Positions 1 through 38,486 of a stretch of 38,852 bases of DNA are shown piece by piece. This stretch comes from a virus. Under the pieces are notes generated by a model. That model ran no database searches. It saw nothing but the letters and a program-made list of their open reading frames with translations, and was not told the DNA's origin. A program made the position numbers and the translations under genes. The first letter of the stretch is position 1. Every line of letters begins with the position of its first letter. The stretch is taken from the IMG/VR virus record IMGVR_UViG_3300037847_000388, positions 1 through 38,852 of that record, one strand, 5' to 3'.

Positions 1-82
1 CGCCAGTGTCCTGACCGTTGTACACATCGTGCTTGGTGACGTTTGAGAAGTTCACCACACCTTCGATAACTTGACTTGCCAT
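1..82 (-). CDS. ssb: Single-stranded DNA-binding protein, N-terminal fragment (gp2.5-like)
   Basis: The window edge cuts this gene. Only the first 27 codons are present, beginning MASQVIEGVVNFSNVTKHDV, and they match the intact SSB at 37875-38249 except for Ala instead of Ser at residue 2. The start ATG is preceded by GAGGATT at Shine-Dalgarno distance. It is a second, partial copy of the gene that opens the replication arm, so it says more about contig ends or genome circularity than about a second functional SSB. Confidence 0.85.
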   Translation of the reverse strand, partial: MASQVIEGVVNFSNVTKHDVYNGQDTG

Positions 83-100
83 TGAGATAATCCTCGTTGT

Positions 101-124
101 TAAAAAAGAGTTCCCGCAGGAACA
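101..124 (-). terminator. Hairpin plus T-tract in SSB leader (terminator or attenuator), left copy
   Basis: Read on the minus strand, GTTCC-TGCG-GGAAC forms a perfect 5-bp stem, followed by TCTTTTTT. It lies between the stop of the 53-aa gene and the SSB start, just downstream of a sigma70-like promoter. The right copy (38272-38298) has a different loop and a T-A to C-G compensatory pair but the same architecture. This supports a selected structure that ends upstream transcripts or attenuates SSB expression. Confidence 0.6.
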
Positions 125-125
125 C

Positions 126-287
126 CTATAGTATCTCACGTTCTGGGCCTCGTGTCAAACCCTTTTTACGTGATTGGTACTTTTTGGCATCTTTCTTCCT
201 GTCCTTGTGTGCGCCTCCTTTGTTGTGATCGTGCTTGGCTACAGGATTCCACCGTCCTCCTGTAGTAACTCCTGTAGTATTACTCAT
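126..287 (-). CDS. Small basic protein of unknown function (53 aa), left copy
   Basis: Fifty-three codons starting ATG with AAAGGA nine bases upstream. The product is rich in Lys, Arg, His and Gly, with a central NPVAKHDHNKGG and KDRKKDAKK stretch that resembles tiny basic proteins common in marine podoviruses. I do not know their function. The right copy at 38301-38462 encodes the same protein with mostly silent changes over the first 44 codons, which is good evidence of translation and purifying selection. The last codons overlap a promoter for SSB. A nucleic-acid-binding role would fit the charge but is only a guess. Confidence 0.75.
   Translation of the reverse strand: MSNTTGVTTGGRWNPVAKHDHNKGGAHKDRKKDAKKYQSRKKGLTRGPEREIL
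130..158 (-). promoter_or_regulatory. Sigma70-like promoter for SSB/replication arm, left copy
   Basis: The minus strand shows TTGACA, a 17-base spacer, then GATACT. The -35 is perfect and the -10 matches 4 of 6. It sits inside the 3' end of the 53-aa gene and faces SSB. In the right copy the same hexamers and spacing are kept although the overlapping amino acids changed, which supports function at the DNA level. Confidence 0.6.
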
Positions 288-312
288 TAGTTTATTCCTT
301 TAGTTTATATCT

Positions 313-543
313 TTAGTAGTCCTTAATACTACTTAAGATGTTATCATAGTTTTCCTGTAATTGCAACACCTCATCTTGTGAAATATTACCGTCAATAGGT
401 ATTGACTCCATGTTCTCTAGCTCCCAATGGGTAGCGATAGAGACTGTCAGACATTCTGTACACATATCGTAGTGCACACCGTTTGCATCTTTCTTCAGTA
501 TCTCCAAATCATCTAGGATAACGTCACACGCCTTACACCTCAT
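313..543 (-). CDS. Zinc-ribbon protein of unknown function (76 aa), left copy
   Basis: A 76-residue protein with CxxC pairs at Cys3/Cys6 and Cys28/Cys31, spaced as in a small zinc ribbon, followed by an acidic helical tail. GGGAGG lies upstream of the ATG. The right copy at 38487-38717 has all four cysteines and differs at only about six residues, mostly conservative. Zinc binding is inferred from the cysteines. Similar ribbons in phage early regions may bind nucleic acid or host transcription proteins, but nothing here shows which. Confidence 0.8.
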   Translation of the reverse strand: MRCKACDVILDDLEILKKDANGVHYDMCTECLTVSIATHWELENMESIPIDGNISQDEVLQLQENYDNILSSIKDY

Positions 544-673
544 CGTAACCTCCCTGCCCGTATTTCTCTGGGTCCTTTCTGGTAACCAAAATGATGGCGT
601 TGACTACGCAGAGAAACAGACCTACCGCCCACAGCCCACACCACAACAAAAACAGACCAAGCAAAAAACTCAT
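533..673 (-). CDS. Tiny membrane protein (46 aa), present only in left copy
   Basis: Forty-six codons. The first 30 residues are almost wholly hydrophobic (FLLGLFLLWCGLWAVGLFL region) and form one transmembrane helix, followed by a short charged tail. The start overlaps the stop of the upstream gene as ATGA, and its own end overlaps the zinc-ribbon start by 11 bases, so it looks translationally coupled. GAAGGA lies ahead of the ATG. In the right-hand copy this ORF is missing and the two flanking genes abut directly. Function unknown. Confidence 0.55.
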   Translation of the reverse strand: MSFLLGLFLLWCGLWAVGLFLCVVNAIILVTRKDPEKYGQGGYDEV

Positions 674-873
674 AGCACATCCTTCATGTTTTCAGTTTCG
701 GGCCAGTTGAACACACCCTCGTACGCCTCTACCAGTTCTGGGTAGGTCATGGCGTCATACCGTTTACGTATCTGGTCCTTTACCATCCTGATTACCGTAG
801 GGAAATCTAGGAAGTTTATCTCGTATTCCGTCAATTCTCTGACCATGATCTCAACATCGTACGCATCGTTCAT
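670..873 (-). CDS. Hypothetical early protein (67 aa)
   Basis: I start it at the ATG at 873, preceded by AGGAGG, rather than at an in-frame ATG 16 codons upstream, because that start overlaps the previous stop as ATGA. The product is a small, probably helical protein. The partial gene at 38714-38852 is a distant homologue sharing the YE, DF, TV, IR and YxAM positions, so this locus holds diverged alleles. No known domain recognised. Confidence 0.65.
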   Translation of the reverse strand: MNDAYDVEIMVRELTEYEINFLDFPTVIRMVKDQIRKRYDAMTYPELVEAYEGVFNWPETENMKDVL

Positions 874-1343
874 ACTGCCTCCTGTCCGTACCAGCGCATA
901 GGGATGCCACGTGCGTCCCAATCGTCTGCCTTGTAATTGTAGTACACCTGATAGCCTAGCACAGCGTCATCACGTTTGCACTCATCTGGCATACACTGTG
1001 GTGGATCTGTGAAGTCACCTGTGGGTATCCCGTTAGGAAGCGCCATGAGCGCGTCTGAGTGCTTTTGCATTGTTGCGTGTACCTTACCATAGCGTTTTGT
1101 GTACTCGTGTCCTAGGGCCAGAAGATGCCTTCTGAGCCATCTGTAGTTTTGACTGCTAGCCCTAGCCCACACTGCACTAGGGTGGTTCTTATGTGTTGAT
1201 TTGTACGCTACCTGCCCCCCGTCAATTTCGTTATGTGCTGTTGACAGTAGCTGTGCTGTCTCCAGTATCATTTTGACCACGTGACGATCACACTGTAGCT
1301 CTGCGGCTTCTCGCGGGTCACGTGACAGGTAAAATATATTCAT
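870..1343 (-). CDS. Pyrimidine-dimer DNA glycosylase-like protein
   Basis: The start at 1343 gives MNIFYLSRDPREAAELQCDR, with the preceding stop two bases upstream. The order of motifs (N-terminal MNIFYL, CDRHVVKMILETAQLLSTAH, THKNHPSAVW, and PPQCMPDEC near the C-terminus) matches a protein family frequent in phages and related to pyrimidine-dimer DNA glycosylases (endonuclease V type). The family would repair UV dimers by base excision, useful in surface water. The assignment rests on recalled sequence pattern, not on confirmed catalytic residues. Its end overlaps the next gene as ATGA in the leftward early operon. Confidence 0.55.
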   Translation of the reverse strand: MNIFYLSRDPREAAELQCDRHVVKMILETAQLLSTAHNEIDGGQVAYKSTHKNHPSAVWARASSQNYRWLRRHLLALGHEYTKRYGKVHATMQKHSDALMALPNGIPTGDFTDPPQCMPDECKRDDAVLGYQVYYNYKADDWDARGIPMRWYGQEAV

Positions 1344-1345
1344 AG

Positions 1346-1588
1346 TTAATCCCCGTGGTCTGTCCAATGGTAGTCAGCGCCTGCTAACACCTCGTCCTGT
1401 ATAATAGCATCAAAGTAATCGTAGTTCCACCCTTCGTACAAATCTTTTTCACCTACTGTGATCTTGTCAATGGTCACTAGATCCTGATGATCGTCGGAGT
1501 CTAGCGTCCAGTGTATCACTACGTCAAGTGTCGCCCACTCAGCGTCTACCTGTACCTCTGTCTGGTGCTGTCCGTATCGTCTGCTCAT
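1346..1588 (-). CDS. Hypothetical acidic protein (80 aa)
   Basis: An 80-residue acidic protein with alternating hydrophobic stretches (TLDVVIHWTL, LVTIDKITVG) that suggest a small beta-rich fold. AGGAGG lies upstream of the ATG, inside a direct repeat of ACACTAG that flanks the ribosome binding site. It is two bases from the downstream glycosylase-like gene and its start overlaps the tiny upstream ORF. I do not recognise the family. Confidence 0.6.
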   Translation of the reverse strand: MSRRYGQHQTEVQVDAEWATLDVVIHWTLDSDDHQDLVTIDKITVGEKDLYEGWNYDYFDAIIQDEVLAGADYHWTDHGD

Positions 1589-1671
1589 TGTCTAGTGTCC
1601 TCCTCTAGTGTTAGCCATAGCCAGATTATAGCACAACCAATCCCCCATATCCACAGCACGTCAGTCTCCAT
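1585..1671 (-). CDS. Tiny membrane peptide (28 aa)
   Basis: Twenty-eight codons, METDVLWIWG followed by GCAIIWLWLTL, then a charged EEDTRQ tail: one short transmembrane helix. It overlaps both neighbours. Its ATG lies inside the last codons of the gene ending at 1661, and its TGA shares bases with the ATG at 1588. Nothing but ORF structure, hydrophobicity and packing supports it, but three other similar ORFs sit at gene joints in this window. Confidence 0.4.
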   Translation of the reverse strand: METDVLWIWGIGCAIIWLWLTLEEDTRQ

Positions 1672-1876
1672 CCTTCCACCCCTTGTATTCGCTCAAAACC
1701 TCTAGCTTTACGATTACACAGTCCATATCACTGTGCACACGGATGTGCTCTAGCATCCGATCCTTCGCTTCCCATTCATCTTGCCAGCACCCATCTTCGT
1801 ACCAGTTCCCTGTGTTCTCGCTCCTGTAGTACAGGGCGAATTTGGACATTTCTGGCAAAGCTGTTCGGTTACTCAT
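1661..1876 (-). CDS. Hypothetical protein (71 aa)
   Basis: A 71-residue protein with a Trp- and Tyr-rich first half (FALYYRSENTGNWY) and a helical, charged second half. GGGAGGG precedes the ATG. It is the downstream partner of a 40-codon gene and upstream of the 28-aa membrane ORF, within the same leftward early operon. Family not recognised. Confidence 0.6.
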   Translation of the reverse strand: MSNRTALPEMSKFALYYRSENTGNWYEDGCWQDEWEAKDRMLEHIRVHSDMDCVIVKLEVLSEYKGWKDGD

Positions 1877-1879
1877 TAG

Positions 1880-2002
1880 TTAATACCCTCCCGTGCATTG
1901 TATTTCTAGTGTCGTACAGTCAGCTTCAAAAGTTATCCCGCGTTCTACTAATCCCGCGCAAACGTCTAAAAACTCTGTCATATCATAACAAGATATTGTC
2001 AT
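1880..2002 (-). CDS. Small conserved-looking phage protein (40 aa)
   Basis: Forty codons, with FLDVCAGLVERGITFEAD in the middle and an IQCTGGY end. The pattern 'helix, ERG(I/V)TFEAD, strand, TGGY' recalls tiny proteins in other marine podovirus early regions. GGGAGG lies eight bases before the ATG, and the start overlaps the preceding stop as TAATG. Function unknown. Confidence 0.55.
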   Translation of the reverse strand: MTISCYDMTEFLDVCAGLVERGITFEADCTTLEIQCTGGY

Positions 2003-2355
2003 TAGTCAAACCTCCCGATTTTTGTCTCGCCTGTGTCGTTATCGCGAATCGCTGTGATCGCGTAAGGGTAGCAGTACATGGTAAATCTGTCAAGGTACGA
2101 TATTGTGGCGTACGGTTGCAAGTCCGGGTCCTCTGGACTCTGGTACGTGCCACAGTCTGCCACAGTGCCACCAAACGGATACTGAAACCCGCCGTACCCA
2201 TAAACCTCGTCCATAGCCTCCGACAGCGAGTCTAACGTGTGATCCTCCCCTAGTGCCTGTGTTGCGTGGATAAAAAACTCTGGCAGTATGCCTAAGTACT
2301 CCCGTGTCACTTCTGGGTAGTGGCTATGGTTCCAAAATACATTGTAGTCTTTCAT
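2002..2355 (-). CDS. Hypothetical early protein (117 aa)
   Basis: A 117-residue acidic, aromatic-rich protein containing REYLGILPEFF, YGYGGFQYPFGGTV and YAITAIRDNDTGE segments. I have the impression of a small family limited to marine phages, without assigned function. GAGGAG precedes the ATG. Its TAA shares one base with the next ATG, consistent with coupled translation in the leftward operon. Confidence 0.6.
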   Translation of the reverse strand: MKDYNVFWNHSHYPEVTREYLGILPEFFIHATQALGEDHTLDSLSEAMDEVYGYGGFQYPFGGTVADCGTYQSPEDPDLQPYATISYLDRFTMYCYPYAITAIRDNDTGETKIGRFD

Positions 2356-2359
2356 GCTT

Positions 2360-2770
2360 TTACACTCCTCTAGTTTGTCTCACGTATCCTTGTGTATACG
2401 CAAAAACTTTCGCTTTATCGTCACGGACCAGCAGATCCGCAAAGTCTGACCCAGTATAGTCACTGTCTGGGTCCTGTCTATAGTAAAAATTACCAGACTT
2501 GTATGGGTTGTAAGTGATTTCCGTTTCTGGTAGATGCCTGTCGTACTTCGGCATCTGGGGCCAGTCCATTAGATAACCCACTAACCCAGCGTGTACGTTC
2601 TTACGCTTCTCACGTAGGACGCGCTCACGGCCCTTCTGTGACACTCTAGGCTGTACGTCACGCAAGGGTACGTAGAACGTGCGAGCGATCACGCGGCCCT
2701 TTTCTGGACCCTCTAGCGCCTTCACGGACCACAGTTTCTTGTGTAAGTTGAAATATACAAATACCTTCAT
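2360..2770 (-). CDS. Hypothetical early protein, MKVFVYFNLHKK type (136 aa)
   Basis: A 136-residue basic protein starting MKVFVYFNLHKKLWSVKALE, with a conserved-looking VLREKRKNVHAGLVG core and a Tyr-rich C-terminal half. Proteins with this N-terminus recur in podovirus early regions, but I know no function. The ribosome site GAGGGTGA overlaps the upstream gene's stop. The charge would permit nucleic-acid binding, which is inference only. Confidence 0.65.
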   Translation of the reverse strand: MKVFVYFNLHKKLWSVKALEGPEKGRVIARTFYVPLRDVQPRVSQKGRERVLREKRKNVHAGLVGYLMDWPQMPKYDRHLPETEITYNPYKSGNFYYRQDPDSDYTGSDFADLLVRDDKAKVFAYTQGYVRQTRGV

Positions 2771-2774
2771 TGTC

Positions 2775-3419
2775 TCACCCTCTGGCGATCATATCGCCCT
2801 GTCGCTTTACCATACTGCGCCCGTGTCCTATGTAGCAGACTACAGACACGCTCTTATCCCAACAAGCACGGCACTTGTCGCACTTGCCCTGTCTTGTGTA
2901 TGCCTCGCATATTACCGCGTCACTGGGTACTGTGTCAACCGTGGCAATCGTGCTAGTGGTGGCACCCTGTACCGTCTCGCCTGTGATGCTGTCGCTAGAC
3001 AAGCGTACCACTACGTTAGGCAGTGCCATGAGCCTAGCAAGAACCGTGCCAAACTTGCTGAACTTGTGCATCCGTGTCGGTATCCAGTGCTTGACCCATG
3101 GCGTACGTTCGCACACGTCTAGGATCTTGTGCGCTAGACGGATGTCGTACATATCGCCAGAGTCGAACCATCGGAAATACCGATCATTGTCAAGCTCTGC
3201 CACCATGTCGTCTGCCCATGCGTCACGCTTCCAGTCCTCGCGGTTGTGCTCGCGTGGTGCACGTACGTTCTTGAAACGGTAGTTTCCCGTGGTGGCATAG
3301 CATCCGCTACAGGCAGGCACAAGTGTACCGTCTGGATTCCTAGACGCAGGACACGTGTCTAGCGCCTGCAGTGACCATGACCGGCATGGCATCTTGCTTG
3401 CCTTCGATAGTTTTAACAT
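2775..3419 (-). CDS. Gp88/DUF7227-like cysteine-rich protein (214 aa)
   Basis: The N-terminal part has cysteines at 12, 23, 37 and 40 (CSGCYA), then an N-rich and W-rich region, the motif RWFDSGDMYD, a segment RTPWVKHWIPTRMHKF, and a C-terminal CDKCRAC cluster. This order matches phage proteins of the Gp88/DUF7227 kind, whose SGD and TR motifs sit in what may be a TIM-barrel-like fold with a metal or Fe-S site. Biochemical function is not established to my knowledge. It is the largest gene of the left early arm. Its start overlaps a 19-codon ORF as TAATG. Confidence 0.65.
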   Translation of the reverse strand: MLKLSKASKMPCRSWSLQALDTCPASRNPDGTLVPACSGCYATTGNYRFKNVRAPREHNREDWKRDAWADDMVAELDNDRYFRWFDSGDMYDIRLAHKILDVCERTPWVKHWIPTRMHKFSKFGTVLARLMALPNVVVRLSSDSITGETVQGATTSTIATVDTVPSDAVICEAYTRQGKCDKCRACWDKSVSVVCYIGHGRSMVKRQGDMIARG

Positions 3420-3478
3420 TATGTGCTCCCGTTGGTGCGTTGGTTTACCAGTGAACCCAGAGCGTACCCTAGGCTCAC
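3419..3478 (-). CDS. Possible 19-codon leader peptide
   Basis: A GTG-started ORF of 19 codons (VSLGYALGSLVNQRTNGST) fills the space between the flanking genes and ends in TAATG overlapping the downstream start. A strong AAGGAGGG lies about 12 bases upstream and serves no other evident start. It could be a coupling leader for the cysteine protein. Support is only positional. Confidence 0.3.
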   Translation of the reverse strand: MSLGYALGSLVNQRTNGST

Positions 3479-3495
3479 CAGTAACTCAACCCTCC

Positions 3496-3711
3496 TTATA
3501 GTCCTAGTGCTTTGTCTCGTGCTTTCCAGTATTCCAGATCACCCGCGTTCTGTACGTGCTCCGGCATCTCGTGGAACATGTGGTCAATACCAAGCTCGCG
3601 CAGTGCATCGTATGCTTGCCACCGGCGCTCGCTGTTGTCGTCTCGTACTGCCTGCTCGACGTTGAAGATCAATCGTGAGATGGCGTACTGCTGTGCTTTG
3701 TTTATGTACAT
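3496..3711 (-). CDS. First gene of left early arm, hypothetical (71 aa)
   Basis: A 71-residue, probably all-helical protein, MYINKAQQYAISRLIFNVEQ onward, with a Trp/His-containing second half. AGGAG lies nine bases before the ATG, and the upstream leader is an unusual C/A-only stretch (about 3722-3757 on the minus strand). It is the promoter-proximal gene of the leftward arm, next to the control region. Function unknown. Confidence 0.6.
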   Translation of the reverse strand: MYINKAQQYAISRLIFNVEQAVRDDNSERRWQAYDALRELGIDHMFHEMPEHVQNAGDLEYWKARDKALGL

Positions 3712-3787
3712 AGTGTTGTGCTCCTGTTGTGTTGTGTTGCTGTGTTGTCGATGGGGTAACTATGAGGCATCCAGAGACAGAACACAA

Positions 3788-4079
3788 GTGTAAATATTAC
3801 ACAGAAATCCCAGGCCCGAAACTGTTGACAGACTTCCGTGATCTGTGGTACTGGCAATGTCAATACCATAGTTTGGCCCGTGTTGTCACGTAAATATTAC
3901 CATTGACAGCTCAGCCCGTTGTGTGCTTGCGGTTGGCCTGAGGCACCTACACTGGCACACACACTCTGTCAACGTAAATATTTCACTTGTATTCGTGTGT
4001 TGTCCGTGGTAGGACTTGGGGCCTCTGGCTTACCACAATGCACAACCCGTGTCAACCCTTGGGGCCATGTGAATATTAC
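3788..4079. repeat. Four GTAAATATTAC-type dyads at 84-100 bp spacing
   Basis: GTAAATATTAC occurs at 3790-3800 (extended to the perfect 6-3-6 dyad GTGTAAATATTACAC at 3788-3802) and at 3890-3900. One-mismatch copies are GTAAATATTTC at 3974-3984 and GTGAATATTAC at 4069-4079. Each is a GTAA-ATA-TTAC palindrome or close to it. Copies two and three are directly preceded by TGTCA. Regular spacing in otherwise GC-richer DNA suggests protein binding sites, either regulator operators or origin iterons. Confidence 0.65.
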
Positions 4080-4128
4080 CCGTGTTTATCCTTGCGCTGT
4101 GGTGTGGCTTGTGTTAGACTCGGGGTGG

Positions 4129-4146
4129 CCTGTGTTTCGACACGGG
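4129..4146. other. Seven-pair hairpin with TTCG loop beside G-runs
   Basis: CCTGTGT-TTCG-ACACGGG can form seven pairs including one G.T wobble. It is followed by GGGG-A-GGGGG. No T-tract follows on either strand, so it is not an ordinary intrinsic terminator. It may be a structural element of the control region. Confidence 0.4.
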
Positions 4147-4195
4147 GGGAGGGGGATTGACTTGTGTTATGTTGTGGTGTAGCCACTCAGGTTTG

Positions 4196-4268
4196 CAAGA
4201 GGGTAAAATTAGGTAAAAACCCTGTAAAAATAACATAATTTATACCTTAGCTAACCTCTTGTTTTACC
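4196..4268. repeat. AT-rich block with GGTAAAA repeats and inverted arms
   Basis: GGTAAAA occurs at 4202-4208 and 4212-4218, with GTAAAA at 4224-4229 and the reverse complement TTTTACC at 4262-4268. CAAGAGG (4196-4202) is matched by CCTCTTG (4255-4261). The central part is nearly pure A/T. A further GGTAAAA at 4340-4346 overlaps the -10 of the rightward promoter, so the word may be an operator. The AT-rich core could also ease strand opening. Confidence 0.5.
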
Positions 4269-4318
4269 TCGTGTTTCCACGGGGGCGGGACTACAGTTAA
4301 AAATAGTACAAAAAAGAC

Positions 4319-4347
4319 TTGACTTTTGAGTAAAAGTATGGTAAAAT
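4319..4347 (+). promoter_or_regulatory. Rightward sigma70 promoter for virion arm
   Basis: TTGACT, a 17-base spacer and TAAAAT each match the consensus at 5 of 6 positions. It lies about 140 bases before the terminase small-subunit gene and points at it. A GGTAAAA word overlaps the -10. Confidence 0.7.
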
Positions 4348-4409
4348 AATAGGCAGATACTAGGATGTATTTAGTAACGCAGGAGTTGGGCTAAGTTATC
4401 TACTTAACC

Positions 4410-4462
4410 GTTCGTATAGATCCCCTCTTCTGTTGCTTCCTAGGCAGGGGACTCATGCGAAC
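4410..4462 (+). promoter_or_regulatory. Structured 5' leader ahead of terminase genes
   Basis: GTTCGTA (4410-4416) pairs with TGCGAAC (4456-4462) and CCCCT (4422-4426) with AGGGG (4446-4450), separated by a partly paired 5x5 internal loop. The result is a long bulged stem in the leader RNA. It resembles phage RNase III processing stems in form. As DNA it lies beside the terminase genes and could equally mark a packaging site. Confidence 0.45.
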
Positions 4463-4488
4463 TTGAGTAAACACAAGGATAATGGATA

Positions 4489-4881
4489 ATGTCTGAAGAG
4501 ACACCCAAGAAAAGAGGCAGAGGAAGGCCACGCAAAGGTGAAATTGTAGAAAAAACAGCAGGCTCCAGAGGCAAAGTAGGCAGGCCTAAGGGTGATGCTT
4601 CTATAATTAACGAGTACAAGGCTAGAATGTTAGCCTCACCTAAGTCAGCTAAGGTACTAGAGACTATATTTGAGGCCGCTCTGGACCACGATCACAAGAA
4701 TCAAGCGGCGGCATGGAAGCTGGTAATGGACAGAATACTACCTGTAGGTGCTTTTGAGAAGGAGGTCACCAAAGATGGAAGCAGAAGTGCAATCCAGATT
4801 AATATCACTGGGGTTGGAGGCGCAACAGTTGCTGATGGCTATCCAGAGAGTAGCACAATCGAAGGCGAACTCGTGGATTGA
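4489..4881 (+). CDS. Terminase small subunit-like protein with AT-hooks (130 aa)
   Basis: The N-terminus has two AT-hook-like motifs, KRGRGRPRKG and GKVGRPKGD, then a helical core (INEYKARMLASPKSAKVLET to MDRILPVGAFEKE) of the type seen in podovirus small terminases. These bind DNA and present it to the large subunit for packaging. AAGGAT precedes the ATG. It is first in the rightward arm, and the large terminase follows about 1.9 kb later. The assignment rests on context, size and AT-hooks. The C-terminal tail is acidic and overlaps another ORF. Confidence 0.6.
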   Translation: MSEETPKKRGRGRPRKGEIVEKTAGSRGKVGRPKGDASIINEYKARMLASPKSAKVLETIFEAALDHDHKNQAAAWKLVMDRILPVGAFEKEVTKDGSRSAIQINITGVGGATVADGYPESSTIEGELVD

Positions 4882-6288: not shown

Positions 6289-6378
6289 GTGGACGTATTT
6301 TTTCTAGGCTGTCTAATGATGCTCCCTATGATAACCGGGGGCATCACTTTTTACTATAGCTGGAAAGTAAGTGGCTGA
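6289..6378 (+). CDS. Tiny membrane peptide (29 aa)
   Basis: GTG-started ORF of 29 codons immediately after the preceding stop (FFLGCLMMLPMITGGITFYY core, one membrane helix). It ends eight bases inside the terminase large-subunit gene. Support is hydrophobicity and perfect packing between genes. It is one of four such ORFs in this window. Confidence 0.4.
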   Translation: MDVFFLGCLMMLPMITGGITFYYSWKVSG

Positions 6379-7621
6379 CTTAAACGTACAACTGTTGCCT
6401 TGGCAACAAGAGGTCTACTCTGATCCTACTAGGTTCAAGGTAGTTGCGGCAGGACGGAGAACAGGGAAGTCCCGTCTTGCGGCTTGGTTACTAATAATCA
6501 ATGCACTACAGGCCGACAAAGGTCAAGTTTTTTACGTTGCGCCCACTCAGGGTCAGGCCCGTGACATTATGTGGCAGACCCTTCTGGAGCTAGGACACCC
6601 TGTGATTGTAGGTTCACATATTAATAACCTACAGATCAAGCTGGTCAACGGGGCCACCATTAGTCTCAAGGGAGCCGACAGGCCGGAGACAATGCGTGGT
6701 GTGTCCTTGAAGTTTCTTGTGATGGACGAATACGCAGATATGAAGCCTGACGTATGGGAGCAAATCCTCCGTCCAGCACTAGCTGACCAAAAAGGTTCAG
6801 CGCTGTTCATCGGTACGCCTATGGGCAGAAACCATTTCTATGAACTGTACAAGTACGCGGAGTTAGGCGACGATGAGACTTACAGGGGCTGGCATTTCAC
6901 CAGCTACGATAACCCGCTGTTGGACGCCTCTGAAATCGACATGGCGAAGAAATCAATGTCGAGTTACGCCTTCCGTCAAGAGTTCATGGCCTCATTTGAA
7001 GCCAGAGGCTCAGAGATGTTCAGAGAAGATTGGGTCAAGTTTGGGGACGAGCAAGACGAGGGCGACTACTACATAGCGGTTGACTTAGCTGGTTTTGAAG
7101 AAGTAAACAAGAAACGAACTAAGAATAGTAGGCTTGATGAAACCGCAATCGCTGTTGTTAAAGTTAGTCCTAATGGTTGGTACGTTGATAATATTATACA
7201 TGGGCGGTGGAGCCTTGACGAGACTGCCACCAAGATATTTCAGGCCGTTAGAGACTACCGACCCATTAGCGTTGGTATTGAGCGAGGAATCGCAAAGCAA
7301 GCAGTGATGAGTCCTCTGATGGACCTACAGAAGCGCTACGGGACTTTCTTTAGAGTCGAAGAGCTAACCCACGGTAACAAGAAAAAGACTGACAGGGTTA
7401 TGTGGGCGCTACAGGGGCGCTTTGAAAACGGTTACGTAACACTTAAGAAAGGAGATTGGAACAACAGGTTTTTAGACCAGCTATTCCAGTTTCCAGATCC
7501 GTTGACCCACGATGACTTGGTTGACGCTTTGGCGTACGTAGACCAGCTAGCGCAGGTTGCGTACCACTACGATTTTGAAATTGACAATCACGAAGTACTA
7601 GACGTTGTAGCAGGATACTAA
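6371..7621 (+). CDS. terL: Terminase large subunit
   Basis: A 416-residue packaging motor. The ATPase domain shows Walker A GRRTGKS at 28-34 and Walker B FLVMDEY with D119/E120, with a coupling-type FIGTP motif at 147-151. The nuclease domain begins at AVDLAG (D238) and ends in an aspartate-rich DDLVDALAYVDQL near 385-397. It translocates DNA into proheads and cuts concatemers. The start is GTG at 6371, inside the tiny upstream ORF. Its stop overlaps the next tiny ORF as TAATG. Confidence 0.95.
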   Translation: MADLNVQLLPWQQEVYSDPTRFKVVAAGRRTGKSRLAAWLLIINALQADKGQVFYVAPTQGQARDIMWQTLLELGHPVIVGSHINNLQIKLVNGATISLKGADRPETMRGVSLKFLVMDEYADMKPDVWEQILRPALADQKGSALFIGTPMGRNHFYELYKYAELGDDETYRGWHFTSYDNPLLDASEIDMAKKSMSSYAFRQEFMASFEARGSEMFREDWVKFGDEQDEGDYYIAVDLAGFEEVNKKRTKNSRLDETAIAVVKVSPNGWYVDNIIHGRWSLDETATKIFQAVRDYRPISVGIERGIAKQAVMSPLMDLQKRYGTFFRVEELTHGNKKKTDRVMWALQGRFENGYVTLKKGDWNNRFLDQLFQFPDPLTHDDLVDALAYVDQLAQVAYHYDFEIDNHEVLDVVAGY

Positions 7622-7720: not shown

Positions 7721-9778
7721 ATGGCAGAAGACATCTTAAGTCTAGACCCGCTTATGATTGAAGAATCTATAGAAGAGTGGGTAATGACCAAATGCGAAAG
7801 CTGGCGGGATCACTATGAATCTAACTATGAACAGAAGTTCGAAGAATACTATCGGCTATGGAGAGGTCAATGGGACCCTGCTGACTCAGAAAGAGCATCA
7901 GAACGTTCTCGTATTATCTCTCCTGCGCTTCAGCAGGCTGTAGAATCAAGCGTAGCAGAACTTGAGGAAGCCACGTTTGGGCGAGGAAAGTGGTTTGATA
8001 TTGCAGACGATGTAAACGACCAAGAACGCACAGACGTTCAGTACCTCCGTAAAAAGCTGACAGAAGACTTTGAAAAGTGCAAGATCCGTAAGGCAGTTGC
8101 AGAGTGTCTTATTAACTCAGCGGTGTTTGGTGTCGGCATTGGCGAAATCGTGCTAGAAGAAGTAAAAGAGATGGCACCATCAACACAGCCAATTATGGAC
8201 GGACAGTTGCAGGCTGTGGGCGTAAACATTACTGACAGAGTTGTGGTCACGCTAAAGCCTGTAATGCCTCAAAACTTTTTGATTGATCCAGTGGCTACGT
8301 CTATAGAAGACGCTATGGGCGTTGCTATTGACGAGTTTGTGTCTAAGCACTCTGTAGAACTGCTACAGGAGCAGGGCGTATACAAAAATGCCTATATTGA
8401 AACAGCGGCTCCTGATACTGACCTAGAGCCTGACCAAGACCTGACAATGTACCATGATGACAAGGTACGTCTCACGAAGTACTACGGCCTTGTTCCTCGA
8501 CAAATGCTTGAAGCTGAAGGGGCAGATGTTGATTCTGACTCTCTGTATGTAGAAGCAGTCGTAGTTATTGCTAACGGCGGTGTCTTGCTAAAAGCTGAAG
8601 CCAACCCGTACATGATGGGTGACCGCCCTGTGGTAGCGTTTCCGTGGGACGTAGTTCCGGGCCGCTTCTGGGGCCGTGGTATTTGCGAAAAAGGCTACAA
8701 CAGCCAGAAGGCTCTGGACACAGAGTTACGCGCACGTATCGACGCCTTGTCCCTCACGATTCACCCCATGCTCGCTATCGACGCTACTAGGTTGCCACGG
8801 GGCGCTAAACCTGAGGTACGTCCGGGCAAGATGATTCTAACTAACGGAGATCCACGTGAAGTACTACAGCCGTTCAATTTTGGGCAAGTTGGTCAGATTA
8901 CTTTTGCACAAGCTCAAGCGCTTCAACAGATGGTTCAGCAGGCTACCGGAGCGGTTGACTCAGCCGGAATCGCTGGAAACGTCAATGGTGAAGCTACTGC
9001 CGCTGGTATTTCTATGTCTCTTGGCGCTATTATCAAACGCCATAAGCGCACCCTGATTAACTTCCAGCAGTCGTTCCTGTTGCCGTTTGTGACTAAAGCG
9101 GCACACAGGTATATGCAGTTTGACCCTGATAACTATCCTGTGGCTGACTACAAGTTCAACGCTACGTCTACGCTAGGTATCATTGCCCGCGAGTACGAAG
9201 TAAGCCAGCTTGTACAACTCTTGCAGACCATGAAGCAAGATAGCCCAGCTTATCCGGTACTGATCCAGAGCATTATTGAAAACATGAACCTCAGTAACCG
9301 CGAAGACTTGATTGCCTCACTGCAAAAAGCGCAGGAGCCAGATCCTCAAGCACAACAGATGGCTCAGATGGCACAGCAGGCTCAACTTGAGTTCCAGCAG
9401 AGTCAAACAGCGGCCCTGCAAGGACAGGCGGCAGAGTCTCAAGCACGTGCGGCTAAGTACATGATTGACACTGAGCTTGCACCAGCAGAGCTAGAGATTG
9501 ACAAGATTAACGCAATCACACGTAATCTGAAGGACGGTGATGCAGACGATAGAGAGTTTGAGAAGCGTCTAAAGATTGCAGAAGTTGCACTTAAAGAAAA
9601 GGCCCTAAATAACAAAGGAGAACCTACTCGTGCTAATGACACAAACCGAAATGAACAGCTTTCTAGACCAAATCAACAAAGCGTTCAGCGCCCAGTTCAG
9701 CCGATTAGACCAGTTGGAGAGCAGGCTCGTGGCCCTAGAGGACCAAATGTCGGCCCAGCCCCAGAAGGAGGAGCCTAA
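7721..9778 (+). CDS. Portal (head-tail connector) protein
   Basis: A 685-residue portal of podovirus type. It follows the large terminase and precedes scaffold and capsid. Recognisable parts are an N-terminal YYRLWRGQWD region, the SRIISPALQQAVESSVAELE stretch, a VPGRFWGRGICEKGYNSQK segment and a long Gln/Ala-rich helical C-terminus with a proline-rich tail. Twelve copies would form the ring through which DNA passes. AAGGAA precedes the ATG. Its 3' 149 bases also encode an overlapping ORF in another frame. Confidence 0.9.
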   Translation: MAEDILSLDPLMIEESIEEWVMTKCESWRDHYESNYEQKFEEYYRLWRGQWDPADSERASERSRIISPALQQAVESSVAELEEATFGRGKWFDIADDVNDQERTDVQYLRKKLTEDFEKCKIRKAVAECLINSAVFGVGIGEIVLEEVKEMAPSTQPIMDGQLQAVGVNITDRVVVTLKPVMPQNFLIDPVATSIEDAMGVAIDEFVSKHSVELLQEQGVYKNAYIETAAPDTDLEPDQDLTMYHDDKVRLTKYYGLVPRQMLEAEGADVDSDSLYVEAVVVIANGGVLLKAEANPYMMGDRPVVAFPWDVVPGRFWGRGICEKGYNSQKALDTELRARIDALSLTIHPMLAIDATRLPRGAKPEVRPGKMILTNGDPREVLQPFNFGQVGQITFAQAQALQQMVQQATGAVDSAGIAGNVNGEATAAGISMSLGAIIKRHKRTLINFQQSFLLPFVTKAAHRYMQFDPDNYPVADYKFNATSTLGIIAREYEVSQLVQLLQTMKQDSPAYPVLIQSIIENMNLSNREDLIASLQKAQEPDPQAQQMAQMAQQAQLEFQQSQTAALQGQAAESQARAAKYMIDTELAPAELEIDKINAITRNLKDGDADDREFEKRLKIAEVALKEKALNNKGEPTRANDTNRNEQLSRPNQQSVQRPVQPIRPVGEQARGPRGPNVGPAPEGGA

Positions 9779-11750: not shown

Positions 11751-12749
11751 ATGGCTAATGAAACCTCTGGTGCCTATTTTACAGCTAATGCTGTAGTAGA
11801 CAAAACTGCGGCAGATGTCTTTGTCCCCGAAATTTGGTCGGACGAGATTATTGCCGCTTATCAAAAGAACCTGAAGATGGCCCCTCTCGTCAAGCGTATG
11901 TCTATGACGGGCAAGAAGGGTGACCGTATTCACGTACCTAAGCCTATCCGTGGTACTGCTAATGCTAAGGCAGAAGCAACTGCGGTAACGATTCAGGCCA
12001 ACCTTGAGACTGAACTGACTATCGACGTTGATCGTCATTTTGAGTACTCACGTTTGATCGAAGATATCGTAGAAGTACAGGCGCTGTCCTCTCTGCGTCA
12101 GTTCTACACTGAAGATGCTGGCTACCAGCTTGCTCTTAAGGTAGACACTGATTTGATGAACGTTGCTACTGGTTTTGGTGATGGTACTCGTACCGCCTCC
12201 CCCACCACTAACGGCGCTTCATGGGTCAACAGCAACAGCTACTACGCTGACAACGGTGCTGACATTGCAACTTATGCGGCTGACACTGTTTTGCCTGCTG
12301 ACCAAATCGAAGACAACCACATCCGCGGCCTCATCAAGTTGATGGATGACGCTAACGTGCCTATGGACAACCGTGTTTTGGTTATCCCGCCTGCGGCTCG
12401 TAAGCAGATCATGGGCATTGACCGATACGTGTCTTCTGACTTTGTAGGTGGTCGTGGTGTTGAGTCCGGCTTGATCGGTAACCTGTACGGTGTTGATATC
12501 TACGTATCAAGCAACTGTCCGGTTCTTGAGACTGCCGCAGAAAACACTGCATCTGGCGCTACCGCAGATGTACGTGGTTGTCTGTTCTTCCACAAGGACG
12601 CTATTGTTCTTGCAGAGCAGATGGCTGTACGTTCTCAGACTCAGTACAAACAGGAATACCTGTCTACGCTGTTTACGTCTGACACTCTGTATGGCGTTGA
12701 AACTTATCGTCCGGAAGCAGGATTTATCCTCGCTGTCGCAGACGCCTAA
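11751..12749 (+). CDS. Major capsid protein (HK97-fold, T7-like)
   Basis: A 332-residue protein preceded by AAAGGAGA and followed by a strong terminator. The N-terminal VFVPEIWSDEIIAAYQKNLK, the KKGDRIHVPKPI strand and the C-terminal VYGVETYRPEAGF-like end are typical of podovirus major capsid proteins. About 415 copies would form a T=7 head. It is served by the perfect promoter at 10325 and probably the most expressed gene. Confidence 0.92.
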   Translation: MANETSGAYFTANAVVDKTAADVFVPEIWSDEIIAAYQKNLKMAPLVKRMSMTGKKGDRIHVPKPIRGTANAKAEATAVTIQANLETELTIDVDRHFEYSRLIEDIVEVQALSSLRQFYTEDAGYQLALKVDTDLMNVATGFGDGTRTASPTTNGASWVNSNSYYADNGADIATYAADTVLPADQIEDNHIRGLIKLMDDANVPMDNRVLVIPPAARKQIMGIDRYVSSDFVGGRGVESGLIGNLYGVDIYVSSNCPVLETAAENTASGATADVRGCLFFHKDAIVLAEQMAVRSQTQYKQEYLSTLFTSDTLYGVETYRPEAGFILAVADA

Positions 12750-18914: not shown

Positions 18915-19292
18915 ATGTTACAAGCACTTATAGGACCAATCGCAGGACTCGCTAAGACTTGGCTGAGTAATCGCCACGAGCAGTCACAAGCGAAACACGT
19001 GGCTAAGATGCAAGTCATACAAAACACTGCATCTTGGGAACAACACATGGCGCAGGCTAGTGCTAACTCGTGGAAAGACGAGTGGTTCACAGTAGTCTTG
19101 AGTGCGCCTGTGCTAGCAATTATGTGGGGCGTAGGGATGAATGACCTTGATATTATAGAGCGCGTAGGAATGGCGTTTGAGGAGCTAAGTAGACTTCCAG
19201 ATTGGTACTCCTATCTTCTTTATGTAGCCGTGACAGCTAGTTTTGGCATACGTGGTGCTGACAAGCTCATGCAAATGAAGGGTGGTAAGTGA
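18915..19292 (+). CDS. Second holin-like protein, GTA_holin_3TM type (125 aa)
   Basis: A 125-residue protein with a hydrophobic N-terminus (ALIGPIAGLAKTWL), a charged middle with SWKDEWFTVVLSAPVLAIMW, and a last membrane helix ending in ASFGIRGADKL. The 'W-KDE-W...P' and 'G-RG-DK' signature fits the 3-TM holin family first described from gene transfer agents. It is the second holin candidate within 1.5 kb, and the pair could be holin and antiholin. Its stop overlaps the next start as TGATG. Confidence 0.7.
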   Translation: MLQALIGPIAGLAKTWLSNRHEQSQAKHVAKMQVIQNTASWEQHMAQASANSWKDEWFTVVLSAPVLAIMWGVGMNDLDIIERVGMAFEELSRLPDWYSYLLYVAVTASFGIRGADKLMQMKGGK

Positions 19293-22200
19293 TGCCTACT
19301 CAAGAATTAGATAAGACAGTTCTACATAATCTAATTACCCGTGGAGATATTAACATTGCGGGTGTAGACACTGTTGAATACGAAGGTCGAGATATACCGT
19401 TAGAGATTATTTATGGTGCTTTGCCTGAAGGGGCTAATTATTGGGTAGCCGAAGATTTAAACGGTGATGGGCTTCTGGAAGTTTTTGCCGCTAGTACAAG
19501 CGAAAGCGGCGAAGAGACTATTTATAACGTTTACGACATTAACCCTAAAGGGAATGTGGTAAGCACAGACTATCAAGATTACCAAGCAAATATACAGGCG
19601 GCGGCGTCTGGATACGGCGTTGAAATTACGTGCTTAGTTGATGGTTGTTCAATTTCCATAATACCTGATTATGGTTTTTGGATGACTATTAGAGATGCTT
19701 TTAAGTCAATAACAACTTTTCCTGAGTCGAGCGACGAACAAGAGTTGGCTGAAGCACAGATGTTTCAGTTTTTTACTCGCAAGTTGGAAGAGGCTTCTAA
19801 CGGCGATATTGATAAAGCAACCTTTTTAAGTGACCTTGAAAACAGCGGATATCCTTTTAATGACGCCTTTATGCGGCGTTTTGAGAAACAGTTTGAAAAC
19901 GCGCAGTACAATGGCTTTTTAAACCGCATTGGCGCACTTTTTGAGGAAGGTGACGGACAAGCAATACAAGATTTCTTTGACAAGTACGAGAACTCAGGTA
20001 TTGCTGACAACTCGTTTGTAATAGAAAACTCGTTTAGCCTGATGAACCCACAGAACGTCCTAGACAGGATGATTCTTGGCGATGGTGATTGGGGCGTCAC
20101 AATTCAAATGTGTACGTCTACAGTCACAACTAACTGTGTTGACCCAAAAGCCATTAACGATATATGGGAAGATTTTGGTAGACACATACAGGTAATTTTT
20201 AAAGGGCTTGAGATTCCGGGCTTACCTGAGTGGTTGCCTTTGCCGGGAATTATGCGTCTTCCAACTATCGGGGAAATATGGGACAAAGTTACTGGTCCTT
20301 TTACTGACGCCGCTAGAGAACAGCTAAAAGACTGTATGTCCAAAGACGATGACGGTGACGGAGTAAACAACACCGCGTCTTACTGCATGGAAAACAGAGA
20401 CATCATAGGCATTATCACTAAAGGCCTAGAGGATGGCGCTACTGAAATAATTGATGCTACAACAGAAGCAGTAGGAGGAATAGTAGACAAAGCCCTAGAG
20501 GGTATTGACTGTGTTTTAAACCCAGTAGACTGCGCCAGTAAGATTAAAGATGTTCTTGAAGGCGTCCTTGGAGGCGCTGATCCAACTCAGCCGGGGCTTC
20601 CACCTTGGATGCGAGCTATCATCATCGGCTCTCAGTACGGAGATGAAGTACTCAAAGAGTTGGAAAAGATATTTGATTCAGACATCGATGGTGACGGTGT
20701 AATTGGAATTACAACCGAACAGGTAACGTGTTGGGATGGATCTGTAGTAGACAAAGAAGAGGACTGTCCTGAGGATACCAGAGTTGATTGTTGGGACGGG
20801 TCTAAAGCTGATTCTTTAGAGCAGTGTCCCGTAGATACTAGAGATGGAGCCACTGTAGAAGAGTGTAATCAACTTGGTAGAGTACACGTTCCAGATGCTT
20901 CTAACCAAACAAAAGGATCGTGTGGGGGCTGTAAAGACGATATAAACACTGTTCCAGAAAACGAAAACGATCCTATGAGTCCTTGTGTGGCTCCAGAAAA
21001 CCCTGACCCCAACGAAGGAGATCCGTGTAATACAGGCGCTCCTCTGAACGCAGAAGGTACTATAGGTCCCGCACCTGATTACGAGTGCGAGCCAAATGAA
21101 AATGCTACCTGTACTGACCCAGAAACAGGCAAAGAAGGGGTCATAAAAAACGGGCAGTGCGTTGTTGAGACAGTTACTCCAGAAATTGATTGTACTCAAC
21201 CTAGGCCTTCAGGACCTGTTACTTTTGACTTAATTGACGCTCAAGACCGATGGGATGCAAAATGTAAAGACACTCATTGCCCTAGTGGGGTTCCGATAGA
21301 TGCACACGTAGATAGCGACTGTAGTAAACCACTAAAAGAAGTTGGAACAAATCCGGGGGACGCTTGCGATTTAGCAGAAGCTGGTTATTCAAGCGGTGGC
21401 GTTGGTGTTATTGACGCAAACGGAGACTGCAAAAGAGTTGGACAGGCGTGTAACAGACAGTCTTACGGTTTCGGTCCCTCAGACAACTGCTCCACAGGAC
21501 TAGGGTTCAACACAGCGCAGGGTGTTATCGACTCTAACGGAGACTGTGTTTGTAACGAAGCCTGTGATGATCCAAACAGAGAAGTAAGCCGAACAACAGG
21601 AGCTTGTTTAGACACCTGTAAATTTGGTTGGAAAAAAGACGCAGAAGGTAACTGCACAGTAGAAGACACTGGCGTTGATGAATGTACAGACCCTAACAGA
21701 AACACTAACGATGATGGGTCTTGTGCCGATACCTGTACTGACGGTAGTCCTGCTCCAGCATCAGGCCTTTGTCCAGCACCAGTAGAGGAGTGTGTAACAC
21801 CTGATGGAACGGCTACAGGGGCTATAGCTCCAGACTGCACAGAGTGTCCGACAGGACAAGATTTTGATACGAATGGCATCTGTGTAGACATTGATATTAC
21901 AGAAAATTGTGAAAACGGAGCTACAAATTATCCTGACTGTGACCAGTGTCCTAAAGGTCAAATATTAAACACACAGGGTATTTGTGTTACTACTGTTGAT
22001 GCTACTTGTGATGAACAAAACAGAGTCACAAACGATAACGGAACCTGTGGCGAATGTAAGGCAGGGTTCACGTTTGACACAGACCAAGACTTGTGTATAG
22101 CAGACGGAGGAGAAGATGTGTGCGCTAACGGGGCTACAGACTTCCCTGCTTGTACTACGTGTCCTGAGGGTCAATCTATGGACGAAGAAGGTATCTGTTC

Positions 22201-22390
22201 CGGTGTGACTCCTCCTCCCGAAACAGGCGGTGGTGGTCCCAGTGGCGGTAGCCTTGGTGGAGGCGGTGGCGGCATGATGACCGGAATCTCTGGTTACATG
22301 GGTGATCCTCAGTTGCTGTCTCGCACAGAGTTCCCAATTACAGACTATTTGGCAGGCCTGTTTGAAAACATTAGAGGCAATCAAGCATGA
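19292..22390 (+). CDS. Giant cysteine-rich putative spike protein (1032 aa)
   Basis: The first 450 residues are acidic and mixed, with calcium-type DLNGDG and DDDGDG motifs. From about residue 480 the protein becomes extremely Cys-rich: I count 46 cysteines between 20729 and 22202. They lie in CWDGS/DCP units followed by EGF-like units of the form C-NGAT-(Y/F)P-C-x2-C-P-x-G-Q-...-GIC. A Gly-rich linker and the motif SRTEFPITDYLAGLF close it. No signal peptide. It lies between holin and tail tube genes, so a virion surface stalk or adhesin is inferred. Disulfide versus metal binding is open. Confidence 0.7.
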   Translation: MPTQELDKTVLHNLITRGDINIAGVDTVEYEGRDIPLEIIYGALPEGANYWVAEDLNGDGLLEVFAASTSESGEETIYNVYDINPKGNVVSTDYQDYQANIQAAASGYGVEITCLVDGCSISIIPDYGFWMTIRDAFKSITTFPESSDEQELAEAQMFQFFTRKLEEASNGDIDKATFLSDLENSGYPFNDAFMRRFEKQFENAQYNGFLNRIGALFEEGDGQAIQDFFDKYENSGIADNSFVIENSFSLMNPQNVLDRMILGDGDWGVTIQMCTSTVTTNCVDPKAINDIWEDFGRHIQVIFKGLEIPGLPEWLPLPGIMRLPTIGEIWDKVTGPFTDAAREQLKDCMSKDDDGDGVNNTASYCMENRDIIGIITKGLEDGATEIIDATTEAVGGIVDKALEGIDCVLNPVDCASKIKDVLEGVLGGADPTQPGLPPWMRAIIIGSQYGDEVLKELEKIFDSDIDGDGVIGITTEQVTCWDGSVVDKEEDCPEDTRVDCWDGSKADSLEQCPVDTRDGATVEECNQLGRVHVPDASNQTKGSCGGCKDDINTVPENENDPMSPCVAPENPDPNEGDPCNTGAPLNAEGTIGPAPDYECEPNENATCTDPETGKEGVIKNGQCVVETVTPEIDCTQPRPSGPVTFDLIDAQDRWDAKCKDTHCPSGVPIDAHVDSDCSKPLKEVGTNPGDACDLAEAGYSSGGVGVIDANGDCKRVGQACNRQSYGFGPSDNCSTGLGFNTAQGVIDSNGDCVCNEACDDPNREVSRTTGACLDTCKFGWKKDAEGNCTVEDTGVDECTDPNRNTNDDGSCADTCTDGSPAPASGLCPAPVEECVTPDGTATGAIAPDCTECPTGQDFDTNGICVDIDITENCENGATNYPDCDQCPKGQILNTQGICVTTVDATCDEQNRVTNDNGTCGECKAGFTFDTDQDLCIADGGEDVCANGATDFPACTTCPEGQSMDEEGICSGVTPPPETGGGGPSGGSLGGGGGGMMTGISGYMGDPQLLSRTEFPITDYLAGLFENIRGNQA

Positions 22391-34209: not shown

Positions 34210-34622
34210 AGGTCTTGTCCAGTTAAGTAATTGATAGCCGCATTCAGCTTATCAGGGTCATCATCAAAGCCGCCTAGCGCCCTGTTACACTTGTGGCACA
34301 ACCAGCCTCTAAACGTCTCTTTCTCGTGGTCATGGTCTAGCACCCACGATCCGTTCTTTGTGTTCCCTCGTCCTTTAACATCCTCCTCAGAGCCTTTGCA
34401 GATAGGGCAGTGATAGCCCTCCTGCGGCATCCCATGTTTCTCTCTGAGATGTTTACGTATTTTCTGCATCTCGTTGTTACACTTGCGGCACTCAGCCCTG
34501 AGGTAGTTACCTCCAGAAGCCATGTTGAAAGAGTCCAGTGGTAAGTACTGGTCACACTTTGAACACACCTTCCCATGTCCTGCGCCTAGATCATCATTCT
34601 CGAAAAAGCAAAGCTGATCCAT
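34206..34622 (-). CDS. Recombination endonuclease VII-like protein
   Basis: A 138-residue protein starting at 34622 in the polymerase stop (TGATG). An N-terminal ribbon with C20/C23 and C45/C48 precedes an Endonuclease_7 (His-Me finger) domain: C72/C75, WVLDHDHE with H97 and H99, FRGWLCHKCNRALGGF with C109/C112 and Asn113. T4 endonuclease VII resolves Holliday junctions, and this could also nick host DNA. It is the second resolvase beside endonuclease I. Confidence 0.85.
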   Translation of the reverse strand: MDQLCFFENDDLGAGHGKVCSKCDQYLPLDSFNMASGGNYLRAECRKCNNEMQKIRKHLREKHGMPQEGYHCPICKGSEEDVKGRGNTKNGSWVLDHDHEKETFRGWLCHKCNRALGGFDDDPDKLNAAINYLTGQDL

Positions 34623-37875: not shown

Positions 37876-38249
37876 CAGAAGTCAGCCACCTCCGGTGACA
37901 CCTCTGCTTCCTCTAGCACCTTCACAGCCTCCAGATACGTAGGAGTACCGTGGACGGGGTGTGCTGGACCCGTCTTGTACTTCAGACGCACACGGGAGTT
38001 ATACGGAACCTCACCCATGTACGGATTGCCTTCAGCATCGTACAGACCAATGGTGTACTTGGACTTAAACTTGCGCTGTTTGTTGCCCTCGTAGTCCTTG
38101 ATCTTGACACCCTGTGCCGCCAGTGTTGCCGCATCGTCCTCCGACATTGTGATTGTCATAGAGAACGCGCCAGTGTCCTGACCGTTGTACACATCGTGCT
38201 TGGTGACGTTTGAGAAGTTCACCACACCTTCGATAACTTGACTTGACAT
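37875..38249 (-). CDS. ssb: Single-stranded DNA-binding protein (gp2.5-like)
   Basis: A 124-residue OB-fold protein typical of marine podovirus gp2.5 analogues (VIEGVVNFSNVTKHDVYNG start, RKFKSKYTIGLYD core, GPAHPVHGTPTYLEAVKVLE). It ends in an acidic tail with a terminal phenylalanine (PEVADF), the feature by which T7 gp2.5 contacts polymerase and helicase. It is about half the length of T7 gp2.5. First gene of the replication arm, behind its own promoter and hairpin. Confidence 0.85.
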   Translation of the reverse strand: MSSQVIEGVVNFSNVTKHDVYNGQDTGAFSMTITMSEDDAATLAAQGVKIKDYEGNKQRKFKSKYTIGLYDAEGNPYMGEVPYNSRVRLKYKTGPAHPVHGTPTYLEAVKVLEEAEVSPEVADF

Positions 38250-38271
38250 ATTGGAATAATCTCCGTTGTTG

Positions 38272-38298
38272 AAAAAAGTCCCCCATTACCCAGAGGAC
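38272..38298 (-). terminator. Hairpin plus T-tract in SSB leader, right copy
   Basis: On the minus strand GTCCTC pairs with GGGGAC (six pairs, one G.T) around an eight- or nine-base loop, followed by TTTTTT. It is positionally equal to the hairpin at 101-124 although loop and part of the stem differ, which argues for a conserved terminator or attenuator. Confidence 0.6.
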
Positions 38299-38300
38299 AC

Positions 38301-38462
38301 CTATAGTATCTCACGTTCCTGAGTCTTTGTCAAACCCTTTTTACGTGATTGGTACTTTTTGGCATCTTTCTTTCTGTCCTTGTGTGCGCCTCCTTTGTTG
38401 TGATCGTGTTTGGCTACAGGATTCCACCGTCCTCCTGTAGTAACTCCTGTAGTATTATTCAT
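38301..38462 (-). CDS. Small basic protein of unknown function (53 aa), right copy
   Basis: The same 53-codon gene as at 126-287. The first 44 codons differ by one residue (Ser2 to Asn) and two silent changes. Only residues 46-48 differ otherwise (RGP to KTQ), exactly where the promoter spacer lies. AAAGGA precedes the ATG. Confidence 0.75.
   Translation of the reverse strand: MNNTTGVTTGGRWNPVAKHDHNKGGAHKDRKKDAKKYQSRKKGLTKTQEREIL
38305..38333 (-). promoter_or_regulatory. Sigma70-like promoter for SSB/replication arm, right copy
   Basis: TTGACA, 17 bases, GATACT on the minus strand, as in the left copy but with a largely different spacer. It drives SSB and the replication genes downstream to the reductase. 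Confidence 0.65.
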
Positions 38463-38486
38463 TGGTTTAATCCTTTAGTTAATTCT

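Follow-up and report, generated by a model that had tools for sequence, protein, structure and literature searches.

Phages that combine a T7-like replication module with the absence of an RNA polymerase of their own must start transcription and replication through host factors, and little is known about how this is achieved. The primary origin of T7 consists of a promoter followed by an AT-rich block. The locus described here has the same order of elements, in a phage with a T7-like DNA polymerase and primase-helicase and a gp2.5-like SSB; unlike in T7, a phage RNA polymerase gene was not found and the promoters are sigma70-like. In mycobacteriophage L5, the stoperator consensus is a GGTGGMTGTCAAG-like 13-mer, and the stoperator word includes TGTCAA beside a −35. 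The elements of the present locus are comparable to the 13-bp asymmetric operators and stoperators of L5 (PMC9283540), and two leftward genes of the phage encode L5-gp82-type and GP88-type domains. They differ from the L5 sites, which are spread over the genome, in being confined to one gap, and an L5-type repressor was not recognised. In the pR/oriLambda region of phage lambda, the origin is transcriptionally activated, and a convergent promoter, pO, is present (PMC3985674). The present locus is similar in that it is a divergent control region with host-type promoters, predicted transcription through an origin-like block and convergent promoter-like units nearby (PMC3985674). It differs from lambda in its T7-like replication module and in its repeated word, which is unrelated; an O-type initiator and iterons were not seen. 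A lambda-like layout, in which transcription from a rightward promoter (PR) would drive an adjacent origin, may be the closest working analogy (PMC3985674). The particulars of the array are new, while the kind of system is already known.

The window, i.e., the whole stretch of 38,852 bases that was analysed, is a single virus record (IMGVR_UViG_3300037847_000388). The coordinates of its features are listed in Table 1. The leftward replication block also encodes a Cas4-type exonuclease, an endonuclease and a ribonucleotide reductase, and more leftward genes lie within 1–3711. A gap of 777 bp (3712–4488) divides the leftward from the rightward gene blocks. No RNA polymerase gene was recognised among the larger ORFs scanned in the window, and the phage is one with a T7-like replication module without a recognisable RNA polymerase gene. 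The earlier note was correct that no T7-type element matches the gap, and a T7-type promoter system was rejected because a phage single-subunit RNA polymerase was absent among the larger ORFs scanned. Neither the gap nor the first rightward gene (4489) had a match in annotated phages, and the terminase matches in cultured relatives were all below 60% identity and mostly partial; the relatives were drawn from IMG/VR. When bacterial genomes were searched for the host, no more than two contigs turned up, both of which may be binning strays; they belong to MAGs of Sphingobacteriales and Verrucomicrobiales.

Table 1 Coordinates of genes, word copies and predicted control elements in the window.
Feature	Position	Strand	Remarks
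Structural genes, rightward	4489 to about 30,040	+	
Terminase	6371–7621	+	Structural block
Portal	7721–9778	+	Structural block
Major head protein	11751–12749	+	Structural block
DNA polymerase, T7-like	34622–36268	−	Replication block
Primase-helicase, T7-like	36265–37875	−	Replication block
gp2.5-like SSB	37875–38249	−	Replication block
PL, predicted outward promoter of the early/replication operon	3759–3787	−	−35 TTGTGT (3787–3782), 17-bp spacer, −10 CATAGT (3764–3759); 2 bp from copy 1; predicted from sequence and equivalents in relatives
Word copy 1, GTAAATATTAC	3790–3800	+	Within 15-bp interrupted palindrome (3788–3802); conserved in relatives
Internal promoter-like unit	3825–3854	+	TTGACA-N18-TACTGG; no −7T
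Word copy 2, GTAAATATTAC	3890–3900	+	
Rightward TTGACA	3903–3908	+	2 bp from copy 2
Internal promoter-like unit	3944–3972	−	TTGACA-N17-TAGGTG (TGTCAA on + at 3967–3972); 1 bp from copy 3; no −7T
Word copy 3, GTAAATATTTC	3974–3984	+	
Internal promoter-like unit	4027–4055	−	TTGACA-N17-TAAGCC (TGTCAA on + at 4050–4055); 13 bp from copy 4; no −7T
Word copy 4, GTGAATATTAC	4069–4079	+	Upstream of PR
PR, predicted outward extended −10 promoter	4092–4120	+	TTGCGC (4092–4097), N17, TGT-TAGACT (4115–4120); 12 bp from copy 4
AT-rich block, 62–69% AT	4195–4350		G-run before it (about 4143–4156); conserved right of both cassette types
Main sigma70-type promoter, structural operon	4319–4347	+	Strong promoter, TTGACT-N17-TAAAAT, extended −10; conserved in 73/104 relatives

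The earlier note had described four GTAA-ATA-TTAC dyads in the gap, at 3790, 3890, 3974 and 4069 with a spacing of 84–100 bp. The coordinates and spacing are correct (successive copies are 100, 84 and 95 bp apart), but the dyad is exact only in copies 1 and 2; copies 3 and 4 each deviate from it by one base, and thus two of the four copies fall short of a perfect dyad. The extended 15-bp palindrome that was claimed is real; it surrounds copy 1 and reads GTGTAA-ATA-TTACAC, with two perfect 6-bp arms and a 3-nt center. A search for GTRAATATTWC over the whole record, as had been suggested, gave exactly four hits, each of them inside the gap and on the + strand, and none elsewhere. Chance clustering of AT-rich words in intergenic DNA would be in keeping with the non-coding, locally AT-rich character of the gap and with the fairly common mismatched forms of the word. 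With up to two mismatches, the record contains 20 matches versus 9.8 expected, and hence only the near-exact word stands out. However, dinucleotide shuffling of the gap, repeated 3,000 times, never produced even two copies, and over 200 shuffles of the whole window the copies averaged 0.07, with a maximum of 1. The relatives moreover keep the word with fixed orientation and promoter geometry. The shuffle counts and the promoter-unit counts in relatives described below refute chance clustering, which we regard as extremely improbable.

To describe the element across the family, the DNA upstream of the homologue of the 4489 gene was compared in 104 non-redundant relatives including the window. 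At least one copy of the word was present in 60 of the 104 gaps and at least two copies in 37, usually 91–107 bp and sometimes about 165–186 bp apart. The conservation at this locus that the earlier note had asked about was thus found; across 21 genomes, the density of the 12-mer GTRAATANTACC inside the gap is about 187 times that outside it. The family consensus from 116 sites is the asymmetric 14-mer YGTGAATATTACCA, and the copies in the gaps are oriented rightward (+) in 92 cases and leftward (−) in 7, indicating that the element is directional. The dyad symmetry proposed for it is therefore not supported at the level of the family, and the asymmetry and the 92:7 preference do not fit a symmetric (homodimer) operator. 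This bears on a temperate-type switch in which a dimeric repressor would bind the GTAA-ATA-TTAC dyads and shut PL and PR. Such a switch is suggested by the true interrupted dyads of copies 1 and 2, the former extending to 15 bp, and by operators beside outward divergent promoters, which recall the lambda and L5 control regions. We consider it unlikely, because the consensus is asymmetric with a fixed orientation, neither a repressor nor an integrase could be recognised in the scanned set of predicted genes, and the 13-bp stoperator word of the L5 type is no more frequent than expected by chance. Specifically, the L5-type consensus gave 18 matches with up to three mismatches versus 18.1 expected, none of them in the gap, and an L5-type stoperator was rejected. 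The composite of the word and TTGACA was found in 67 stretches of IMG/VR, about 45 of which clearly belong to this phage family; the stretches outside the family nearly all have a single copy, a level given by chance. No description of this word element was found in the literature.

The TGTCA flanks reported for some copies do exist, directly at copies 2 and 3 and 13 bp away at copy 4. They are outward-facing −35 hexamers (TTGACA) and were rejected as part of an operator. In relatives, TTG starts 2–3 or 12–14 bp past the word on the right side, and the distance from the word edge to the −35 on the left side is 1–2 or 12–13 bp. About one helical turn separates the two distance classes. TGnTA was found at N17 or N18 from TTG, and beside the rightmost copy this was the case in 34 of 34 relatives, at a null rate of 1.4–1.7%. 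The rightmost units have T at −7 in 91% (TAGACT, TATCCT and TATCAT), corresponding to an extended −10 sigma70 promoter. PR of the window, beside copy 4, likewise has a TTGACA-like −35, a 17-bp spacer (within the 17 ± 1 bp of this promoter class), TGn, −11A and −7T. The leftmost copies in relatives are accompanied by outward leftward promoters, TTGYRY-N16/17-TACAAT and similar (e.g., TTGCAC-N16-TACAAT), with TACAAT or TAAGAT as the −10 in many of them. In PL of the window, −11A and −7T are present and both hexamers are weak. The array is thus bracketed by one predicted outward promoter per side. A general promoter scan of the window picked neither PL nor PR. The word is directional, confined to the gap and conserved, and it stands at two promoter distances one helical turn apart.

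TGnTA is also present in 43 of 54 inner rightward units and 37 of 67 inner leftward units, and none of them has T at −7 (0/80). This composition resembles the promoter islands of Escherichia coli, in which numerous promoter-like elements overlap over a few hundred bp (PMC3661553). The units here differ in being conserved, phased to a specific word and, for the internal ones, consistently without −7T.

Based on these features, we propose, with a probability of roughly 0.55, that a sequence-specific transcriptional regulator of the divergent promoters, most likely an activator, binds at the four words. The promoter phasing and the fixed orientation argue for such a site. As judged from the spacing, the factor would occupy sites centered near −43 (PL) and −53 (PR). 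When bound on the helix face that touches the host RNA polymerase, it would switch both gene blocks, with PL driving the replication genes and PR the structural genes, and rightward transcription from PR would cross the adjacent AT-rich block, the likely origin. The missing −7T in the internal units is not explained by a simple array of working promoters and counts against binding by such a regulator. The weak PL hexamers of the window, and the failure of the general scan to pick PL or PR, weigh in the same direction.

Some relatives carry a cluster of DnaA boxes in the gap (type B) instead of the word array (type A). Among the 67 gaps that had at most one word, 31 contained a cluster of at least two boxes, compared with none of the 37 that had two or more words (Fisher p = 5e-8, uncorrected for kinship). 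When kinship was controlled, the exclusion was in the expected direction in every informative pair, but the pairs were too few to reach significance (median p 0.125). Neither the word nor a DnaA cluster was found in 27 of the 104 relatives, which also counts against the proposed regulator. The type-B boxes (TGTGNATAA, 2–9 per gap) are arranged in tandem in one orientation, with a spacing of commonly 11, 22 or 29 bp, and the clusters are mostly located at −220 to −520 from the 4489 homologue. In several genomes the cluster comprises all or most DnaA boxes of the record (6 of 6 in G015 and 3 of 5 in G013). Tandem co-oriented boxes with 11 or 22 bp spacing are a feature shared with bacterial and plasmid DnaA-box origins. 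The cluster of TTATNCACA boxes that marks a DnaA-dependent origin is found in type-B relatives but not in the gap of the window, which contains no exact box.

The shared position of the two element types raises the idea that the word is itself a diverged DnaA box. Copy 4 with its neighbouring bases reads, as the reverse complement, ATATTCACA, one base from TTATNCACA; the variant TGTGAATAATACC holds a perfect box, and perfect-box variants occur in L099, L111 and L116. Nevertheless, the conserved ACCA end of the word falls outside the box, GTAAATA in 22% of the copies alters a core base, and the words are spaced 84–107 bp apart versus 11–29 bp in real clusters. One-mismatch boxes in the window are also at chance (32 versus 34.8 expected). 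We therefore find this derivation very doubtful.

Comparison of close relatives showed that near-identical backbones differ only by a cassette of ~270–300 bp. Between L152 (words) and L160 (DnaA boxes), identity is 93–100% on the right flank of the cassette and 27–52% inside it, and the corresponding values for L192 and L088 are at least 90% (left), 84–99% (right) and 39–47% (inside). A tree built from two neighbouring proteins requires no fewer than eight gains or losses of the array on well-supported branches. Near-identical phages with a word array or DnaA boxes in one place constitute a natural experiment. Other repeats also occur at the locus. The L037 gap has GTTGGC words 47 bp apart, and in the L037, L039, L055, L077, L122 and L160 gaps the type-A TTGACA/TGTCAA pairs are replaced by inverted TTGGCA/TGCCAA pairs, which are 47 or 54 bp apart in some relatives. 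A third kind of array, direct repeats of ~22 bp (ACTGGTTAAATTTTGAYCACTT), is present in L236 (1–110; the same genome as L105), L108 and the L014 gap, without the word and without DnaA boxes. From the swaps and the other repeat types, the locus seems to hold exchangeable arrays, and it has the appearance of a control module that can be swapped, situated at a likely replication origin.

Two features point to the locus as an origin, namely the AT-rich block and the DnaA clusters found in relatives, and the module probably also contains a replication origin, as far as can be read from sequence. The earlier note had left the choice between an operator array and a replication origin. The former gains support, as operator sites of a regulator, from the quantised promoter distances and the conservation in relatives; the latter is supported only indirectly, through the DnaA cluster that takes the place of the array in relatives, beside the shared AT-rich block. 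In 10 of 11 genomes, the cumulative GC skew reaches its minimum within the gap or close to it, but this does not discriminate between the readings because divergent transcription alone would give the same skew. The words could also be initiator-binding sites of a phage origin that stand in for DnaA boxes, the promoters being secondary or priming replication. The 2–9 tandem boxes in the place of the array, the AT-rich block and G-run kept beside both cassettes and the skew minimum are in line with this. An initiator gene was not found, and the quantised distance to the −35 hexamers ties the words to promoters. Furthermore, iterons of an origin are direct repeats of ~17–22 bp about one repeat apart, unlike these 14-bp words with their spacing of 84–107 bp. 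Initiator binding is possible, and we rate it clearly below the transcriptional regulator.

In relatives, the DnaA-box cluster replaces the right part of the module, which suggests that the cassettes are alternative ways to control or open one locus. We tentatively suggest that two interchangeable cassettes are in use within a single phage family at one origin/promoter locus, either a DnaA-box cluster or a promoter-coupled directional word array. Its members might then switch between a DnaA-dependent and a DnaA-independent (transcription- or other-factor-driven) start of replication by a swap of ~300 bp that leaves the remaining genome as it was. The locus offers a concrete and testable layout, in which outward promoters form a pair and a directional word is helically phased to them.

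A comparison of gene content in about 20 genomes, several of them incomplete, found no phage gene that tracks the array type. Together with the cassette swaps in near-identical backbones, this makes it probable that the factor comes from the host or is a phage protein shared by all members of the family. Finding it would show which host protein these uncultured phages rely on. The small genes at 126–287 and 670–921, which ORF calling had made look type-A-specific, were rejected as such, since tblastn matches occur in type-B or array-less genomes and are missing in some type-A genomes. The gene at 313–543 (−), near the replication genes, encodes a 76-aa zinc-ribbon protein with an N-terminal C-x2-C...C-x2-C and is present in nearly every relative genome compared. 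It was rejected as the regulator on the basis of no significant family match and a mean pLDDT of 56 in the AlphaFold model.

The ends of the record, 1–544 and 38168–38718, repeat each other with 89% identity and gaps, so that one gene is duplicated in the record (313–543 and 38487–38717). This points to a genome of ~38.1 kb that is circular or terminally redundant, with an assembly drawn from mixed strains. In the structural region, a 1033-aa protein (19289–22390, +) has no PHROGs or Pfam match. Its cluster occurs in few of the relatives compared, and several relatives have a similar-sized protein from another cluster.

The 5′ leader of the 4489 gene contains a conserved RNA hairpin at 4410–4462 (+), GUUCGUAU-AGAU-CCCCU...AGGGG-ACUC-AUGCGAAC, that is homologous in relatives of both cassette types. 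It had no Rfam match within 3400–4700 and may be a structured leader RNA that has so far gone undescribed. Among relatives, both strands of the outer stem vary (UUUACC/GGUAAA and UUCACUU/AAGUGAA), the inner stem CCCCU/AGGGG alternates with CCCUU/AAGGG, and the internal loop AGAU/ACUC is invariant.
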